From Nitrosomonadales bacterium (lineage in GTDB: Bacteria > Pseudomonadota > Gammaproteobacteria > Burkholderiales > Gallionellaceae), in contig JAHFQY010000004.1 in assembly GCA_023259065.1 (NCBI GenBank), positions 55,163 to 94,002 on the forward strand: a DNA stretch of 38,840 nt. The letters run 5' to 3'. The stretch's first letter is position 1; each line of letters opens with the position of its first letter. The position numbers were made by a program, and so were the translations under genes. The notes under the pieces are model-generated. The model was not told the DNA's origin. It ran no database searches and saw only the letters and a list, made by a program, of their open reading frames with translations. Below, piece by piece: positions 7,272 to 38,840 of this stretch.

Positions 7272-8648
7272 TTAGCGGGGCACACTGTCAGTCTCTGCAG
7301 CCACACGCACGACCTGCGCAATTTTTTCGGCCCATTGCTGCACCGCCGCACGATCCTCACCTTCCACCATGACCCGCAACAGCGGCTCGGTGCCGGAAGG
7401 ACGCAGTAACACGCGGCCCTTGCCGTGCAATGCGGTTTCAGCAGCAGTGACTGCGGCACGCACATCAGGATGATTAGCCAGATCGCCGCCCTTGGCGATG
7501 CGCACATTGATCAGTATCTGCGGATACATCAGCAGCCCTGCGGCAGCCTGGGCCAGCGTCTGCTTTGCCGCACGCAGGGCATGCAGCACCTGCAGCGCCG
7601 AGACTATGCCGTCCCCGGTGCTATGCCGGTCCAGGCAAATAATATGGCCGGAATTCTCGCCGCCCAGTTGCCAGTCTTTTTGCTGCAACAGCTCCATGAC
7701 ATAACGGTCACCCACCTTGGCGCGCGCAAACGGTATGTCCATGCGCTGCATGGCATGCTCAAAGCCGAGGTTGGTCATCAGCGTGCCTGCCACCCCCCCC
7801 TTCATCACGCCTTGCGCCTTGCGCTGCTGCGCGATGATGTAGATCAGCTGGTCGCCGTCGTACAAGCGCCCCTCGGCATCCACCATTACCAGCCTATCGC
7901 CGTCGCCATCCAGGGCTATGCCCAGATCCGCCTTGTGTTCCTGCACTGCCTGTTGCAAATTGCCCGGCGCGGTCGCGCCATAACCATCGTTGATGTTCTT
8001 GCCGTCCGGCTGCACGCCGATCGCCACCACATCCGCGCCCAGCTCGTGGAACACATGGCTGGCAATGTGATAGGCGGCGCCGTGGGCGCAATCAACCACC
8101 AGCTTCAGCCCGCGCAAATCCAGCTCGTAGGGAAAGCTGCTCTTGCAAAACTCGATATAGCGCCCGGCGGCATCATCGATGCGCTTGGCCTTGCCCAGCC
8201 TGGCTGACGCCATGGTCACGATGGGCGAATCCAGCCCGGCCTCGATGGCGCGCTCGGTTTCATCCGGCAACTTGCTGCCATCGCCGGAAAAGAATTTGAT
8301 GCCATTATCTTCAAACGGATTGTGCGAGGCCGAGATCACCACCCCCGCCTGCAAACGCAAGGCGCGTGTCAGATAGGCCACGGCAGGCGTGGGTATGGGG
8401 CCGGCCAGATAGACATCCACACCGGCAGCGATCAGGCCCGCCTGCAGGGCCGACTCCAGCAGGTAACCGGAAATGCGCGTGTCCTTGCCTATCAAGATTG
8501 CCGGTCGCGTCCCTTCCGACAAATGCCAGTCGGCCGCCGCCAGCACCTTGCCGGCGGCATAACCCAGGTGCATGACGAATTCGGGGGTAATCGGATACTC
8601 GCCCACCTTACCACGCACACCATCGGTACCAAAATATTTTCTGCTCAT
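7272..8648 (-). CDS. glmM: phosphoglucosamine mutase
   Basis: GlmM converts glucosamine-6-phosphate to glucosamine-1-phosphate, a step toward UDP-GlcNAc for peptidoglycan and lipopolysaccharide. The start at 8648 gives [16 protein letters not shown], the normal family N-terminus; an upstream in-frame start would add ten unrelated residues. The phosphoserine loop is [15 protein letters not shown] (Ser near residue 108), the magnesium site is DGDGDR, and the C-terminal phosphate-binding loop is [15 protein letters not shown]. The length of 458 residues is close to the usual 445-450. It follows folP in the classic ftsH-folP-glmM order, but a 152-base spacer with a repeat element separates the two. 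Confidence 0.97.
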
Positions 8649-11641: not shown

Positions 11642-12262
11642 CTATTCGCGCTTTTCCAGGCCCAGCAGATACACCTCGCTGCTGCGATCACGCGATGCCT
11701 TGGGCTTGCGACTGACCACGCGCGCGAAATGATTGCGCATGGTCTTCATATATTCTTCAAAACCAGTACCCTGAAACACTTTCACCAGGAACGCCCCGCC
11801 CGGTTTCAGGTGTTGCGCCGCAAACTCAAGCGCCAGCTCGGCCAGATACATGGCACGAGCCTGATCGGAGATATCAACACCGCTTATGTTGGGCGCCATG
11901 TCGGAAATTACAAGGCCTATCTGCTGCCCCTTCAGGGTTGCTTCCAGCTGCGCCAGCACACTGTCTTCGCGAAAATCACCCTGAATGAACTCGACCCGCG
12001 CTAACGGCTGCAAGGGCAACAGATCCAGCGCAATCACGCGCCCACCCTGCCCGACCTTGCTCGCCGCCACTTGCGACCAGCCCCCGGGGGTGGCCCCCAG
12101 ATCGACCACCACCATGCCTGGCTTGAGCAAATGGTCGCGCTCGTCTATCTCCATCAGCTTGTAAGCGGCACGCGAACGATAGCCCTCCTTCTGCGCCAAC
12201 TGCACAAAAGGGTCGTTTACATGCTCTTTCATCCACTGTTTGCTGGTTTTGGAGGGCTTCAT
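11642..12262 (-). CDS. rlmE: 23S rRNA (uridine-2552 2'-O) methyltransferase
   Basis: RlmE (FtsJ/RrmJ) methylates U2552 in the A loop of 23S rRNA at a late stage of large-subunit assembly. The 206-residue protein matches the E. coli enzyme in length. It has the SAM-binding motif [15 protein letters not shown] near residue 52, the catalytic Lys in the N-terminal [12 protein letters not shown] stretch, the SDMAPNISG loop holding the catalytic Asp, and [14 protein letters not shown] with the second Lys. It stands 65 bases upstream of ftsH on the same strand and is divergent from yhbY over a 34-base gap. Confidence 0.97.
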
Positions 12263-12296
12263 CGATTAGAATGCGGCACTATATCTGGAGTACATC

Positions 12297-12638
12297 ATGT
12301 TAACGCTTTCTGTTTCCCAACGCCGTGACCTCAAGGCACGCGCGCATCCGCTGAACCCCACCGTAATGATAGGCTCAGCCGGGCTGACACCCTCCGTACT
12401 GGCCGAGATTGCCCGCAGCCTGAAAAGCCACGAGCTGATAAAAATCCGCGTCATGAGCGACGATCGTGAAGCGCGCGCCGCCATGCTGGAAGAAATCTGC
12501 ACCCAGCTGGACGCCGGCGCCGTGCAACACATCGGCAAGATCCTGGTGGTATACCAGCCGCAGGAAACCCCGCTGGTCAGCATGCCCAAGCGCAAAAAAG
12601 GCAAGCCGCTGACCAAGAAGCAACTGGGTAACCGTTAA
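12297..12638 (+). CDS. yhbY: YhbY family (CRM domain) ribosome-associated RNA-binding protein
   Basis: The 113-residue protein is one CRM domain, with RAHPLNPTVMIGSAGLTPSV and the helix ending KSHELIKIRV. In E. coli YhbY associates with pre-50S particles. A short basic tail (KRKKGKPLTKKQLGNR) extends past the domain. The ATG at 12297 has a GGAG about eight bases upstream. It is divergent from rlmE, the usual partner, which also acts on the 50S subunit. Its TAA stop is shared with the left end of a large inverted repeat. Confidence 0.92.
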   Translation: MLTLSVSQRRDLKARAHPLNPTVMIGSAGLTPSVLAEIARSLKSHELIKIRVMSDDREARAAMLEEICTQLDAGAVQHIGKILVVYQPQETPLVSMPKRKKGKPLTKKQLGNR

Positions 12639-31296: not shown

Positions 31297-31737
31297 ATGA
31301 GTGAAACATTTACCAAGGCGATGGCGCGAAACATATTTTACGGGGGGGCGGTATTTTTCTTCCTGTTGTTTCTCGGACTCACCTTTGACAGCATGAAAGC
31401 CTTGCCCAAACGCGATCATCGAGAAAACATCACGGAGTCTGTCACGCGCGGCAAACTCATCTGGGAAACTCGCAACTGCGTCGGTTGCCACACCATTCTG
31501 GGCGAGGGAGCTTATTTCGCACCTGAACTTGGCAACGTCTACAAGCGTCGCGGGGGCGACAACGGTGGCGCTGAATTCATCAAGGCCTGGATACAAAGCC
31601 AGCCCACCGGTGTTCCAGGGCGTCGTCAAATGCCGCAATTTCATCTGAACGACCAGCAACTGGAAGACATGGTTCAATTCCTGAAGTGGACGTCTGAAGT
31701 CAACACCGGCACTTGGCCACCCAATATTGAAGGCTAA
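31297..31737 (+). CDS. norC: nitric oxide reductase subunit C (cytochrome c)
   Basis: NorC carries electrons from periplasmic donors to NorB. The 146-residue protein has one N-terminal membrane anchor (IFYGGAVFFFLLFLGLTF, about residues 13-30) and a periplasmic heme c domain with CVGCH at 61-65, the typical GAYFAPELGNVYKRRG after it, and a likely axial Met in GRRQMPQF (Met 112). AGGAGG lies four bases before the ATG. It leads a cluster whose genes all point the same way and is followed by norB after 44 bases. Confidence 0.97.
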   Translation: MSETFTKAMARNIFYGGAVFFFLLFLGLTFDSMKALPKRDHRENITESVTRGKLIWETRNCVGCHTILGEGAYFAPELGNVYKRRGGDNGGAEFIKAWIQSQPTGVPGRRQMPQFHLNDQQLEDMVQFLKWTSEVNTGTWPPNIEG

Positions 31738-31754: not shown

Positions 31755-33158
<1,404 letters not shown>

Positions 33159-33196: not shown

Positions 33197-33218
33197 GTCT
33201 CTATAGTTGACTATTTTA

Positions 33219-33803
33219 ATGGACAATACACGGGCTCATCCGCAGATTCTGGCCACGCCTCCCGGCGATCTGGCGATCTGGTTTTTCATTTATGCCGAGC
33301 TACTCGCTTTTGGCGTCTTCTTCGTCGCCTACGCTTTTGCGCGGGCGCACAATGTGGAGCTGTTCAACGAATCGCAACAGCACCTCAACCGTGCATCGGG
33401 TGCCATCAACACCCTGGTGCTGATTACCAGCAGTTACTTCGTGGTGCGCGGCGTTGCCGCCATCCAGCGCGGCTACTCGACACTTTGCGCGCGCTGGCTT
33501 GCCGCTGCCATCGGTTTAGGCGGCGTCTTTCTCGCCATCAAGCTGCATGAATTCGACGCCGTTTTTTCCGCCGGCATCTCGCTCAGCACCAATACTTTCT
33601 ACATGTTCTACCTGTCGCTCACCCTGTTCCACTTCATGCACGTGATCCTGGGCATGGTGATCCTGTTCGCGGTGATGCTGAAAGCACAGCGTGGCGGTTA
33701 CAGCGCAGAGGAGCATCGCGGCGTCGAAACCGGCGCCTCCTACTGGCATATGGTGGATCTGCTGTGGATCATCCTGTTCCCGCTGGTTTACGTCATCCAT
33801 TAG
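33219..33803 (+). CDS. norE: NorE, cytochrome c oxidase subunit III-like protein
   Basis: The protein of 194 residues is a short member of the cytochrome oxidase subunit III family, with about five membrane segments. It opens with PGDLAIWFFIYAELLAFGVFF and has KLHEFDAVFSAGISLSTNTF, LTLFHFMHVILGMVIL and the terminal GASYWHMVDLLWIILFPLVY, the NorE/CoxO pattern. NorE is not catalytic but improves NO reductase activity in some denitrifiers. The ATG at 33219 is preferred; a TTG at 33207 in the same frame is possible. Neither has a good Shine-Dalgarno. It directly follows a strong terminator and is followed by the norF remnant after ten bases. Confidence 0.9.
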   Translation: MDNTRAHPQILATPPGDLAIWFFIYAELLAFGVFFVAYAFARAHNVELFNESQQHLNRASGAINTLVLITSSYFVVRGVAAIQRGYSTLCARWLAAAIGLGGVFLAIKLHEFDAVFSAGISLSTNTFYMFYLSLTLFHFMHVILGMVILFAVMLKAQRGGYSAEEHRGVETGASYWHMVDLLWIILFPLVYVIH

Positions 33804-33813
33804 GCGAACTCAC

Positions 33814-34089
33814 ATGAACTCCACCCCCGGCATGTTCCGTCCCTGCACCAGCATCTGACTGCTCCTGCTGTTGCTCACCGGAATCACCTTCGCCGTCTGC
33901 GAAAGCGGGCTGGGCGGCGCGGGCATCATGCTGCTCGTGCTGGGCACGGCAGTGGTCAAGGTGCAGATGGTTGCCAACTATTTCATGGGGCTGCGCCACA
34001 CCCGCTGGCTGTGGCGCAGCATTGTGCTGGTATGGCTGTTGCTGGTGGCGGTGTTGATCGCTATCGCATATTTGCAAAGTATCAGGTAA
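33814..34089 (+). pseudogene. norF: norF interrupted by an in-frame TGA
   Basis: From the ATG at 33814 the frame codes MNSTPGMFRPCTSI, then TGA (33856-33858), then continues LLLLLLTGITFAVCESGLGG and on to a stop at 34087-34089. The continuation has the NorF pattern: VVKVQMVANYFMGLRHTRWLWR, two or three membrane segments, in the usual place after norE. TGG (Trp) at the TGA codon would restore a 91-residue NorF, so this is a one-base nonsense change. The only restart near it is a TTG at 33871 without a Shine-Dalgarno. A sequencing error or TGA read-through are alternatives. Confidence 0.8.
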
Positions 34090-34132: not shown

Positions 34133-34915
34133 ATGAGCGAGCTGCCTTTTTACAAACCCCACGGCAATGAAATCGAATTGTTCGAGCACGCCTATCGCAA
34201 CCGCCTGCCCCTGCTGATCAAGGGCCCGACCGGCTGCGGCAAGACGCGTGTCGTATCGCACATGGCGTCGCGCCTGGGGCTGCCGCTCTACACCGTGGCA
34301 TGCCATGACGACCTCACCGCGGCCGACCTGGTGGGGCGCCACCTTATCGGCGACGGGGTGACCTACTGGAATGACGGCCCGCTCACGCGCTCGGTGCGCG
34401 AAGGTGGCATCTGCTATCTGGACGAGGTGGTGGAAGCGCGCAAGGACACCACCGTCGTGCTGCATCCGCTGTCTGATGACCGCCGCATCCTGCCCATAGA
34501 GCGCACCGGCGAGATTCTGCAAGCGCCGCCCGAGTTCATGCTGATCGTGTCCTACAACCCGGGCTACCAGAATTTCCTCAAGGGCATGAAGCCCAGCACG
34601 CGCCAGCGCTTTGTCAGCCTGCGCTTCGACTTCCCCGAAGCCGAACTGGAACAGCAAATCATCATCGGTGAAACCGGTATCGATGACATGTTGTCCAAGA
34701 AGTTAGTTAATCTCGCCAACAGCCTGCGCGCACTCAAAGAGCACGATCTGGAAGAGGCTGCCAGTACCCGCCTGCTGGTGTATACCGCCACCCTGATCGG
34801 CAGCGGCTTTGACCCCGTGGAGGCGTGCCGCGCCGCGCTGGTGGAGCCACTCACCGACGACGAGGAAACCGCGGAGGCATTGATGGAGATCGTGTATGCC
34901 AGCTTCGGCAGATAA
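34133..34915 (+). CDS. norQ: NorQ, MoxR-type AAA+ ATPase for NO reductase activation
   Basis: NorQ works with NorD to insert the non-heme iron or otherwise activate NorCB. The 260-residue protein has Walker A GPTGCGKT at about 31-38, the CHDDLTAADLVGRHLIGDGV loop typical of the CbbQ/NirQ/NorQ group, Walker B GGICYLDEVVEARKD, a sensor region VSYNPGYQNFLKGMKPSTRQ and a CbbQ C-terminal domain. Length is normal. Its last 20 bases overlap the next gene, so translation is probably coupled. Confidence 0.95.
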   Translation: MSELPFYKPHGNEIELFEHAYRNRLPLLIKGPTGCGKTRVVSHMASRLGLPLYTVACHDDLTAADLVGRHLIGDGVTYWNDGPLTRSVREGGICYLDEVVEARKDTTVVLHPLSDDRRILPIERTGEILQAPPEFMLIVSYNPGYQNFLKGMKPSTRQRFVSLRFDFPEAELEQQIIIGETGIDDMLSKKLVNLANSLRALKEHDLEEAASTRLLVYTATLIGSGFDPVEACRAALVEPLTDDEETAEALMEIVYASFGR

Positions 34916-35294
34916 CAACGAAACACCCGGGCAGAACCTTGCAGTGATGGCTGAAGCGCTTTACCTCGCCAACCTGCTGGTGGCCCCCGGCTTGAGTTTC
35001 ATTATCCTGCTGCGACTCTATTTCAGGCATCGCGCCACGGCGCCGGCGTTGGCCATATGCCACCTGAAGCAGACCGTTTCCGCCAGCATCTGGGCGGGCA
35101 TCCTGCTGTTGATCGCCAATCTCGCCATCTTTTCGCTCGGCGGCTACACCTCGCCCTATACCTGGGCTGTAGTGATCGTCTATTTCACCACCTGCCATTC
35201 CACCCTGGTCCTGCTGGGCATGCTCGGCCTGGCGCGCGCGATGGCCGGCAAGGATTTCATTTACCCGCTGATAGGCCGCCGCTGCGATGGATAA
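34896..35294 (+). CDS. small membrane protein of the nor cluster, function unknown
   Basis: The 132-residue protein has about four hydrophobic segments: LYLANLLVAPGLSFIILLRL, SIWAGILLLIANLAIFSL, YTWAVVIVYFTTCHSTLVLL and LGMLGLARAMAG. The pattern P-G at the first segment and HLKQTVSASIW before the second recalls Tic20/DUF4870-type proteins, but this is weak and I would not name the family. It starts inside norQ (20-base overlap, with GGAG upstream) and ends inside the next gene (8-base overlap), so it is tightly bound to the nor operon. A role in assembly of NO reductase or as partner of the polyferredoxin is inferred from position only. Confidence 0.75.
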   Translation: MPASADNNETPGQNLAVMAEALYLANLLVAPGLSFIILLRLYFRHRATAPALAICHLKQTVSASIWAGILLLIANLAIFSLGGYTSPYTWAVVIVYFTTCHSTLVLLGMLGLARAMAGKDFIYPLIGRRCDG

Positions 35295-36258
35295 CCCCAC
35301 CCAACGCTATCGCCTGATGACCCAGGCCGGATTTTTCATCCTGTTCCTGCTGGCGCCGGTATTCGACCTGTTTCGCCTGGACCTCAATCTCAAGCATTTC
35401 TTTTTCCTCGGCATGCACTGGACACTGGGCCTGGATGATTTTGTCGCCGGCCGCATCGACGCCACCGAAGCCGCGCTGCGCGTCGTGCTGCGCGGCGGCC
35501 TGCCCATACTCGGCACCATCGCCTTCGGCATCTGGGTTGCGTGGAAATACGGGCGCCTCTACTGCGGCTGGCTATGTCCGCATTTTTCCGTGGTGGAAAC
35601 CATCAACCAGCTGATGCGCCGCGCCATCGGCAAGCAGAGCCTGTGGGATCGCCATCTGCTGCCGCAAAAAAATGCCGATGGCAGCATCACCCGCGCCAAT
35701 CCGCTGTACTGGCTGGTATTGCTGCCGCTGGTAATCGCCTTCGCCTTTCTGTGGGCCATCGGCCTGCTCACTTACCTGCTTCCCCCCGCGGAAATCTACG
35801 GCAATTTGTGGCACGGCACGCTGACGCGCAACCAGAGCGTTTTCCTGATGGCGGGCACCACTGCCTTCTTTGTCGAGTTCATGTTCGCGCGCCACCTGTT
35901 CTGCCGCTACGCCTGCGCTGTCGGGCTGTTCCAGTCACTGGCCTGGATGGGCAACCGCAAGGCCATGGTGATCGGCTTTGACCGCAGCATGGTGGAAGAA
36001 TGTGCGGATTGCAATGCGGCCTGCGACAACGTGTGCCCGATGCGCATCAAGCCGCGCACCATCAAGCGCATGATGTTCACCTGCACCCAGTGCGGCCAGT
36101 GCGCCGACGCCTGCGGCAAGGTGCAGGCAGACAACCCGGACGGCGCCCTGCTGCAATGGGTGCAGGGCGACTGTGCGCTGGACAAATCGGTGCGCGACTT
36201 CGGCCAGCATATAGATCTGCCCGCGCATTGCTACGACAGCAACAAGAAGAAAAAATAA
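35287..36258 (+). CDS. membrane polyferredoxin, CcoG/NapH/NosR-like
   Basis: The 323-residue protein has about five membrane segments and two pairs of Cys motifs. Membrane-side motifs are YCGWLCPH near residue 92 and FCRYACAVG near 204, as in CcoG, NapH and the C-terminal part of NosR. The soluble 4Fe-4S motifs are CADCNAACDNVCPM (about 239-252, Cx2Cx3Cx3C, one residue longer than the usual first spacing) and CTQCGQCADACGK (about 265-277). The Ig-like C-terminal domain of CcoG is absent. By analogy with CcoG, a cupric reductase in cbb3 oxidase assembly, it may deliver electrons for metal reduction or for NorCB maturation. It overlaps the previous gene and abuts norD. Confidence 0.85.
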   Translation: MDNPTQRYRLMTQAGFFILFLLAPVFDLFRLDLNLKHFFFLGMHWTLGLDDFVAGRIDATEAALRVVLRGGLPILGTIAFGIWVAWKYGRLYCGWLCPHFSVVETINQLMRRAIGKQSLWDRHLLPQKNADGSITRANPLYWLVLLPLVIAFAFLWAIGLLTYLLPPAEIYGNLWHGTLTRNQSVFLMAGTTAFFVEFMFARHLFCRYACAVGLFQSLAWMGNRKAMVIGFDRSMVEECADCNAACDNVCPMRIKPRTIKRMMFTCTQCGQCADACGKVQADNPDGALLQWVQGDCALDKSVRDFGQHIDLPAHCYDSNKKKK

Positions 36259-38085
36259 ATGGAAGAACAGGTCGGCGCCATCTGGCATAAATTGATCACC
36301 GGCGTGGCGGAGAAGCGCTACCCCAAGGAAGCCGTGCAGCTTGCGCAAATCAGCAAGACTGCCGGCATACTGTTCCGCGCCTGGGGCGGCGACAGCGGCC
36401 TCGCGGTGAAATCGGCCACCGCCACCGCCCACGGCGCCAGGCGCAGCCTGCTGCAACGCATCGCCGGCAGCAACCTGAAAACCGAACTGACCTGGCTGGA
36501 CGGCGAAACACTGAACCTGCCCGCCACGCTGGATCTGTTCCCCGAGCGCAGCCTGAACCGCGATTTGTACCTGTGGCTGATCGCTCTCGCCGCGACATCA
36601 AGCAATCCCGGGCTGCCGTGGATTCAGCGCAACCAGCAGGCCACGCTGGAGGTGCTGCAACGCTGGCCCGGTCTGCTGCCGCGCTATCGCCGCCTGGTGA
36701 GCGCCCTGCTGGCAATACGCCCGCAGCCCGCACGCCTGCCGCGCAACGAAGCCAGACAGGAGGAAGCCATACGCGCCGCGCTGCAAAACCCCGGCAGCGT
36801 GGAAGAGCTTCCCCCCGCCCGCTATCCGCCCCAACCGGTGCACCTGTGGCTGCATCCCTTGCCGCCGCAAACCACGCCAGCCCAGCCCGGCAACACCGAG
36901 CCTGCCAGCCATGAAGGCGGCAACAGCCAGAAGAACAAGAACGACAGGCGCTATCAAGCCGAGCGCGTGGACATGCCGGACGGCAAGGATGGCTTCATGA
37001 TGTTCTTCCGCGCCGAGAGCATTCTGAGCTGGGCCGAATACATCAAGGTCAACCGCGCCACCGAAGAAGACGAAGCGCCGGATGATCAAGCCGCCGAGGA
37101 CATGGACAAGCTCAGCGTCGCCCAGGATGGCAAGACCACGGCCTCGCGCCTGCGCTTCGACCTGGATCTGCCCTCTGCCGCCGCTGACGACCTGCCGCTG
37201 GGCGGCGGCATATTGCTGCCGGAATGGCATTACAAAAAACAGCAACTGCTGCCCGACCATTGCCGCGTGCAACCCATGGTGGCGCGCAATGCCGCAGCAC
37301 AGGCGTTGCCAGCCCATCTTGCCGCCACGGCGCGGCGTTTGCGCAGCCAGTTTGAGGCGCTCACTCCGTGCAAGGTGTGGGTCAAGGGGCAGTTCGACGG
37401 CACCGAGCTCGACCTCGATGCCTGCGTGCAATTCTCCGCCGACCGCATCAGCGGCCTGCAGGCGCGCGAGAACGGGCTGTACAAGGCCCACCAATACCGT
37501 GACCGCGACCTCGCCTGCCTGCTGCTGGCAGACCTGTCCCTGTCCACAGATGCCCATGTCAGCGACGAGGCGCGTGTCATCGATGTGATCCGCGACACCC
37601 TGTTCCTGTTTTCCGAGGCGCTCTCCACCACCGGCGACCGCTTTGCGCTGTACGGCTTTTCCTCGCTCAAGCGCGAAAATATCCGCTTCCATGTGCTCAA
37701 GGAGTTCGAGCACAAGTACAACGCCGAAGTGCGCGGGCGCATCGCCGCCATCAAGCCCGGCTTCTACACGCGCATGGGCGCGGCCATCCGCCACTCCAGC
37801 CGGATACTGGCCAAACAGGCGGCGACGCAAAGATTGCTGCTGATACTCACCGACGGAAAACCCAACGACCTCGACCAGTACGAGGGCCGCTATGGCGTGG
37901 AAGACACCCGCGTCGCCATCCACGAGGCCAGGCAAATGGGCTTGCGCCCCTTCTGCGTCACCATAGACGAGAAGGGCAGCAACTACCTGCCCCATCTGTT
38001 CGGCGTGAATGGCTATGTGGTGATCCGCAAACCCTCCGAATTGCCGCGCGAACTCCCCATGCTGTATGCGCAACTTACCCGCTAG
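36259..38085 (+). CDS. norD: NorD, VWA-domain activation protein for NO reductase
   Basis: NorD pairs with the AAA+ protein NorQ to activate NO reductase. The 608-residue protein has a helical N-terminal part, a low-complexity acidic/basic middle (about residues 210-295) and a C-terminal von Willebrand A domain. The MIDAS motif is ADLSLST near residue 425 (DxSxS), with the later Asp in LILTDGKPNDLDQYEGRYG near 529. The ending KPSELPRELPMLYAQLTR is typical of the group. Its ATG directly follows the stop of the polyferredoxin gene. The next gene, nirS, has its own promoter. Confidence 0.95.
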   Translation: MEEQVGAIWHKLITGVAEKRYPKEAVQLAQISKTAGILFRAWGGDSGLAVKSATATAHGARRSLLQRIAGSNLKTELTWLDGETLNLPATLDLFPERSLNRDLYLWLIALAATSSNPGLPWIQRNQQATLEVLQRWPGLLPRYRRLVSALLAIRPQPARLPRNEARQEEAIRAALQNPGSVEELPPARYPPQPVHLWLHPLPPQTTPAQPGNTEPASHEGGNSQKNKNDRRYQAERVDMPDGKDGFMMFFRAESILSWAEYIKVNRATEEDEAPDDQAAEDMDKLSVAQDGKTTASRLRFDLDLPSAAADDLPLGGGILLPEWHYKKQQLLPDHCRVQPMVARNAAAQALPAHLAATARRLRSQFEALTPCKVWVKGQFDGTELDLDACVQFSADRISGLQARENGLYKAHQYRDRDLACLLLADLSLSTDAHVSDEARVIDVIRDTLFLFSEALSTTGDRFALYGFSSLKRENIRFHVLKEFEHKYNAEVRGRIAAIKPGFYTRMGAAIRHSSRILAKQAATQRLLLILTDGKPNDLDQYEGRYGVEDTRVAIHEARQMGLRPFCVTIDEKGSNYLPHLFGVNGYVVIRKPSELPRELPMLYAQLTR

Positions 38086-38283: not shown

Positions 38284-38840
<557 letters not shown>

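Follow-up and report, generated by a model that had tools for sequence, protein, structure and literature searches.

A conserved polyferredoxin gene between norQ and norD is the core of an unnamed accessory module of cNOR

The window analysed here, a stretch of 38,840 nucleotides from a Nitrosomonadales bacterium, carries a nor cluster in which norC, norB, norE, norF and norQ are followed, all in one direction, by a gene for a small membrane protein (SmA), a gene for a membrane polyferredoxin (PFd) and norD (Table 1). The last four reading frames are closely packed: norQ overlaps SmA by 20 bases, SmA overlaps PFd by 8, and the PFd stop codon is separated from the norD ATG by 0 bases. An ORF check reproduced exactly the coordinates and overlaps given in the original prediction, which had drawn attention to the two inserted genes from the DNA letters alone. 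Because both frames are conserved in other genomes, chance or artefactual ORFs could be ruled out for SmA and PFd. Beyond norD, a further frame with a c-type cytochrome domain begins (38293-38838) and leaves the window; we take it to resemble cd1 nitrite reductases in their N-terminal region.

Table 1. Genes of the nor cluster in the window
Feature	Position	Strand	Assignment and basis
norC	31297..31737	+	cytochrome c subunit of cNOR; ORF; before norB in homologous clusters
norB	31782..33158	+	catalytic subunit of cNOR; ORF; homologues mostly 57-92% identical, norC adjoining
norE	33207..33803	+	COX3-like; COX3 3.8e-12
norF	33871..34089	+	COX4_pro-like; COX4_pro 2.4e-13
norQ	34133..34915	+	MoxR-type AAA+ ATPase; AAA_5 2.2e-36, CbbQ_C 9.9e-33
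SmA	34896..35294	+	membrane protein of 132 aa with four predicted helices; weakly resembles DUF4870/Tic20
PFd	35287..36258	+	membrane polyferredoxin, 323 aa; ORF and invariant redox residues
norD	36259..38085	+	VWA-domain partner of NorQ; VWA 2.6e-6, position, homologues

Across 421 related genomes, PFd follows cNOR closely: it was found in 47 of the 76 genomes in which NorB is matched, against 1 of the 345 others (Fisher p about 6e-41, a value that ignores relatedness), leaving 29 genomes with NorB alone and 344 with neither. These genomes combine an order-level set (150 genomes; PFd orthologue in 15, NorB match in 31) and a class-level set (274 genomes; 34 and 46, respectively), which have three genomes in common; at order level, orthologues were separated by a cut set between 257.7 and 75.7 bits, retaining 15 of the 50 genomes that match at E<=0.001. 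Conversely, a NorB match accompanies PFd in 47 of 48 genomes, and the sole exception (G356, 87% complete) carries its PFd in a norQ-SmA-PFd-norD unit. The original prediction would have been refuted by a pair lying mainly outside nor clusters, and the survey shows the opposite. The phylum-level search gave matches in 16 of 249 genomes, one of which, G421 (115 bits, L239), shows no nor neighbour and was excluded from the PFd count.

The linkage extends to gene order. A scan of genome contigs with PFd gave 65 loci, those of Thiobacillus denitrificans and of an Aromatoleum/Azoarcus strain among them, and in all 65 norQ and/or norD lies on the PFd strand, as judged by tblastn with the nor proteins of the window. 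The gene next after PFd is norD throughout the 30 class-level loci fetched, one of them from the own genome, and throughout the 14 phylum-level loci, 13 of which have norQ preceding PFd; of four class-level genomes outside the 30, G215 and G269 also show PFd-norD, unlike G246, and G247 was left out. In G269 the PFd gene is split over two frames (L224:7273-8225), by a frameshift mutation or an assembly error. Together with the own locus and 13 order-level loci, the 65 make up a set of 79 PFd loci, in which near-duplicates such as L003 and L056 are included and from which a fragment (L016) and paralogues scoring 75.7 bits or less (L002, L017-L031) were left out. PFd thus occurs with cNorB and adjoins nor genes, as an accessory gene of cNOR should, the exceptions being G246, locus L036 and a Thiothrix plasmid, all described below. 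We conclude that PFd is the core of a real, conserved, unnamed cNOR accessory module, which bears out the earlier assignment of these genes to cNOR, PFd usually standing with NorQD. A search of open-licence literature by title and start of abstract returned no description of the pair, which is weak evidence of absence.

Possession of PFd is not universal among NorB genomes. Of the 29 that show none, two have contigs that end before the place of PFd (G122, G335), and in two others NorB is only 46% (G055) or 40% (G071) identical. On a NorQ tree of 84 clusters, the distribution of PFd calls for about 12 gains or losses, at least five of these on well-supported branches, in a tree whose bootstrap had not settled; the function must therefore be dispensable or replaceable. 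PFd is a widespread gene with several losses, or gains, in its history.

On sequence criteria, PFd is a polyferredoxin of the NapH/CcoG/NosR kind that falls in no named family and would constitute a new subfamily; three plasmid records annotate it only as '4Fe-4S binding protein'. The window protein matches the Pfam profiles Fer4_5 (2.1e-10, over the cut-off) and Fer4_18 (1.9e-5, just below it), the former being matched by 28 of 28 PFd homologues. With Fer4_5, two CxxxC motifs, eight cluster cysteines and four hydrophobic regions, PFd has the features of the CxxxCP polyferredoxin superfamily, its second motif being CxxxCA, not the superfamily-type CxxxCP. Its best NCBIfam match is napH (TIGR02163; 6.1e-15, 55.4 bits, far below the cut-off of 213), and ccoG scores similarly (TIGR02745; 7.9e-14, 51.4 bits, far below the cut-off of 316.7). 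All 28 homologues match TIGR02745 (best E 3.7e-20), and every nor-linked PFd scored against it stays below the cut-off, with a top score of 58.9 bits. The epithet 'CcoG-like' in the original prediction was therefore half right: a weak ccoG match is there, but napH matches equally and both lie far under their cut-offs. The C-terminal Ig-like domain FixG_C is absent from the eight Pfam families matched at E<=0.001 by the 28 homologues, and the window protein ends 47 residues past its last cluster cysteine; as YccM-type relatives are likewise described without a C-terminal FixG domain in a review (PMC7558416), the missing domain alone cannot exclude a CcoG relative.

The redox motifs provide a clearer separation. 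In an alignment of 28 diverse PFd homologues, 12 of 12 cysteines and the histidines H37, H99 and H203 are invariant, and they make up the motifs CxxxCPH (C93, C97, H99) and RHxxCxxxCA (H203, C206, C210) together with the eight cysteines of the clusters (239, 242, 246, 250; 266, 269, 272, 276). We examined the motifs in 93 rows, of which 79 are the loci above, 13 come from the phylum level and one is the window itself, a repeat of L001. CxxxCPH is present in all 93; RHxxCxxxC without a following P is present in 92, as is a first cluster motif widened to CxxC-x(3-10)-CxxxCP, and the row that lacks parts of the signature is a truncated sequence (L094). The full signature is thus found in 92 of 92 complete PFd rows, and CcoG shows its motifs in 0 of 30. 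The classic CxxCxxCxxxCP occurs in 30 of 30 CcoG and the classic first cluster motif in 22 of 22 NapH, one of which has RHxxCxxxC, but with P following. Where PFd has CPH and RHxxC, CcoG has CPQ (30/31) and RExVC (29/31); after the second motif, FQ stands in 30 of 31 CcoG and FQS in 78 of 79 PFd, some phylum-level PFd having AQS.

A tree of 60 rows gave one group each for PFd (21 rows), CcoG (17) and NapH (11), with support of 100/100, 100/99 and 100/99; because the branches are long, the order of the three groups is unsure. Two of its rows had been relabelled by sequence (one fetched as napH proved to be PFd, the other CcoG), two were omitted, and the remainder was thinned to 60. Score, clade and signature rule out PFd as a member of the CcoG family. 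Nor does it stand in for CcoG, since 30 of 31 PFd genomes and 19 of 22 PFd-less genomes have a gene for a true CcoG (over the cut-off), in the former at another place in the genome; with the separate clade and the signature, its presence alongside PFd disposes of the equation of the two proteins.

Family-mean hydropathy of PFd shows four main membrane stretches, and the charge balance of the loops, with borders taken from the helices of a structure model, predicts a cytoplasmic location for both termini, the C93/C97 loop and the cluster domain at the C-terminal end. The structure model itself is poor (mean pLDDT 65.7) and its fold comparison gave no meaningful match, so we make no fold claim for PFd; a PDB sequence search with the PFd alignment returned a short ferredoxin stretch only. 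From its sequence, PFd is predicted to have four helices, with the CxxxC motifs and two [4Fe-4S] clusters on the cytoplasmic side.

The model of SmA (mean pLDDT 79.7) has four helices, in agreement with its original designation as a four-helix protein. The window SmA has no Pfam or NCBIfam match at E<=1 and misses the profile PF09685 (DUF4870) even at E<=5; among 31 aligned homologues, 13 match that profile weakly (best E 6.4e-4). Fold comparison returned, with good coverage, two chains of TIC complexes, 8z9y_B (prob 0.94, TM 0.62, E 0.64) and 7vcf_W (Z 8.4, rmsd 3.0, 116 aligned), both presumably Tic20, but four-helix bundles with no relation to them do at least as well, reaching Z 9.8. Judging from the model, a DUF4870/Tic20-like fold is plausible for SmA. 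A PDB sequence search with the SmA alignment returned nothing credible, and the own genome (77% complete) yielded no DUF4870 match.

SmA is optional in PFd loci. It was not detected in 17 of the 79, nor in any of the 14 phylum-level loci, and among the 62 loci with a match two hold a 40-residue stretch only (L004, L038) and one is cut by a contig end (L044). By tblastn labels, 24 of 62 PFd clusters in the NorQ tree set are without SmA, and 6 of 22 PFd-less clusters have SmA. Each gene being found without the other, we dropped the idea that the two always come together; SmA, named as a partner in the original prediction, is not an obligate one. Two further arrangements were seen: a PFd-less nor cluster in G346 holds two SmA homologues (L211:9591-9920 and 12162-12548), and an Amphritea plasmid carries one on the opposite strand, before norC (L301:3592-3870).

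What might a cytoplasm-facing polyferredoxin do for cNOR? We propose that PFd serves cNOR specifically, as a membrane electron carrier that most likely acts in maturation together with NorQD, a reading to which we assign a probability of about 0.4. According to a study of the Paracoccus denitrificans enzyme, the insertion of FeB requires both NorQ and NorD, purified NorQD did not restore activity of the solubilised FeB-deficient enzyme, and the iron source is left open as free Fe2+ or 'iron chaperones/ferritin' (PMC9976466); a 2026 cryo-EM paper, as far as its available text goes, describes how NorQD may open cNOR and leaves the iron source unsettled (PMC13036017). The motifs and clusters of PFd would lie on the cytoplasmic side, which is that of NorQD and the proposed side of entry of FeB iron into NorB. 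Electrons from a cytoplasmic or quinol donor would pass through the PFd clusters and reach a metal site formed by the CxxxC/His motifs, where PFd would keep or make iron ferrous during its hand-over to NorB, and SmA, where present, would anchor PFd in the membrane or serve it as an adaptor there. Occupancy of the clusters, maturation instead of catalysis, iron as the substrate and the role of SmA are what we infer here. The requirement cannot be general: in the P. denitrificans study, the nor operon is given as six genes, norCBQDEF, without PFd or SmA, and its expression in E. coli gives active cNOR with FeB non-haem iron (PMC9976466).

The strongest rival places PFd in turnover rather than assembly, as a NapH/NosR-like part of a quinol dehydrogenase that passes electrons to NorC or NorB. 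Membership of the same polyferredoxin superfamily and a NapH profile matching as well as that of CcoG speak for it, as do two plasmids: in Amphritea PFd lies between norB and norE, adjoining norB and apart from norQD, and in Thiothrix it stands beside norCB and NnrS, with no norQD within 6 kb. Against it, the cofactor motifs of PFd are predicted to be cytoplasmic, and no gene for a periplasmic ferredoxin-type partner lies beside PFd in the window or in three annotated plasmid regions. The bc1 Rieske subunit, moreover, is encoded in all 53 genomes searched, 31 with PFd and 22 without, so PFd does not stand in for bc1, although an extra electron route is still compatible with this count. In three genomes, finally, a norQ-(SmA)-PFd-norD unit is separate from norCB: about 26 kb away in G061; on the opposite strand in G080, its norD end about 90 bases from norF; and on another contig in G035, with no nor genes in the 6 kb upstream of norQ and no SmA found (the genus label is the same for G080 and G035). 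That PFd stays with norQD away from norCB points to maturation, which we hold to be the more likely role; electron supply in turnover we consider unlikely, if not markedly so.

Further arrangements were seen. The order on a Sphaerotilus plasmid is norC-norB-norQ-PFd-norD. In G246 (L219, PFd at 7389-8309, minus strand), PFd is directly beside ubiU and ubiV, genes of anaerobic ubiquinone synthesis, with norB and norD on other contigs, and L036 has no norD within 8 kb of PFd.

The neighbours of PFd in a few lineages add a possible link to iron. A bacterioferritin gene (TIGR00754, over the cut-off) lies between PFd and norD in G032 (L011:989-1450, minus strand) and replaces PFd between SmA and norD in G077 (L128:9001-9465), two genomes that share a genus label. 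In a search of five genomes of the family, the nor-cluster bacterioferritin proved to be a second copy in both, the other, encoded elsewhere, being about 50% identical; G649 has a 68% identical ferritin-like gene on a 2.8-kb fragment with no nor gene. A gene for a hemerythrin HHE-domain protein directly follows PFd at four loci (L003:2517-2960, L007:2523-2975, L046:9023-9475, L056:9020-9463), each with a 4-base overlap that sets its start codon over the PFd stop, and directly precedes PFd at two (L164:998-1489 and L165). Because few lineages are involved and hemerythrins are also linked to NO, we regard these ferritin and hemerythrin neighbours as suggestive only. Between the hemerythrin gene and norD, three loci encode a conserved small protein that looks secreted by eye (L007:2998-3483, L046:9796-10281, L056:11799-12317), the L046 copy of which has no Pfam match. 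Insertions in nor clusters can also be without any iron link: type II toxin-antitoxin genes (YefM-YoeB / Phd-PIN) lie between SmA and norD in G020, where no PFd was detected (L315:3646-4145), and after PFd in L036 (9029-9651).

The same neighbourhood could be read as a response to NO stress, in which the module and the genes around it would serve to repair iron sites (FeB, NorQD, iron supply) or shield them from NO. Hemerythrin and NnrS are neighbours typical of NO-response loci, and the near confinement of PFd to NorB genomes would fit; yet a repair function, we reason, would give PFd no need to stand between norQ and norD across genomes this diverse, and [4Fe-4S] proteins are NO-sensitive themselves. 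We judge this reading less probable than electron supply in turnover. Least probable of all, and very unlikely, is a cupric reductase like CcoG that supplies copper for denitrification: PFd shares two CxxxC and two cluster motifs with CcoG, and the FQ after the second motif, but it forms a separate clade with CPH and RHxxC in place of CPQ and RExVC, it is linked to cNOR, an iron enzyme, and a copper role is made unlikely by the true CcoG of 30 of the 31 PFd genomes examined.

Within the maturation reading, reduction of iron by PFd is a good hypothesis, drawn by analogy with CcoG, although a review states that CcoG reduces Cu(II) and not Fe(III) (PMC7558416). In its fullest form, which we advance tentatively and consider unlikely to hold in every part, PFd would be a dedicated ferric reductase built like CcoG, its preference shifted from copper to iron by the two histidines adjoining the CxxxC motifs; it would supply NorB with Fe(II) by way of the NorQD gate, with SmA as a membrane adaptor and the ferritin or hemerythrin of the cluster as an iron source.

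An unnamed polyferredoxin, often accompanied by SmA, has thus been kept between norQ and norD in many denitrifying bacteria and is probably an additional helper in the building of cNOR. PFd offers a concrete candidate for the supply of non-haem iron once NorQD has opened NorB; if it is a ferric reductase, it would represent a missing iron-delivery branch of NO reductase assembly, and haem-copper oxidases and NO reductases would each have a polyferredoxin helper, one for copper and the other possibly for iron. As cNOR makes N2O, whatever limits its assembly matters for denitrification.

Among known systems, the closest in architecture is the cupric reductase CcoG/RdxA/FixG (TIGR02745), likewise a membrane polyferredoxin with two CxxxC and two cluster motifs and likewise encoded by an assembly gene of a haem-copper-type enzyme. 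PFd differs from it in having no detected C-terminal FixG domain, a second motif that is not CxxxCP, a widened first cluster motif and histidine where CcoG has Gln/Glu adjoining the CxxxC motifs, and in the linkage of its gene to nor, not cco. The quinol dehydrogenase ferredoxin NapH/MauN (TIGR02163) is similar to PFd in length and equals CcoG in profile score; it differs around the CxxxC motifs, keeps the classic first cluster motif and forms a separate clade, and no napG-like gene was seen adjoining PFd in the window or the three annotated plasmid regions. With the iron-insertion chaperones NorQ and NorD, finally, PFd shares its place, its gene lying between theirs and usually in their genetic unit; NorQ is an ATPase and NorD a VWA protein, whereas PFd belongs to the membrane redox proteins.
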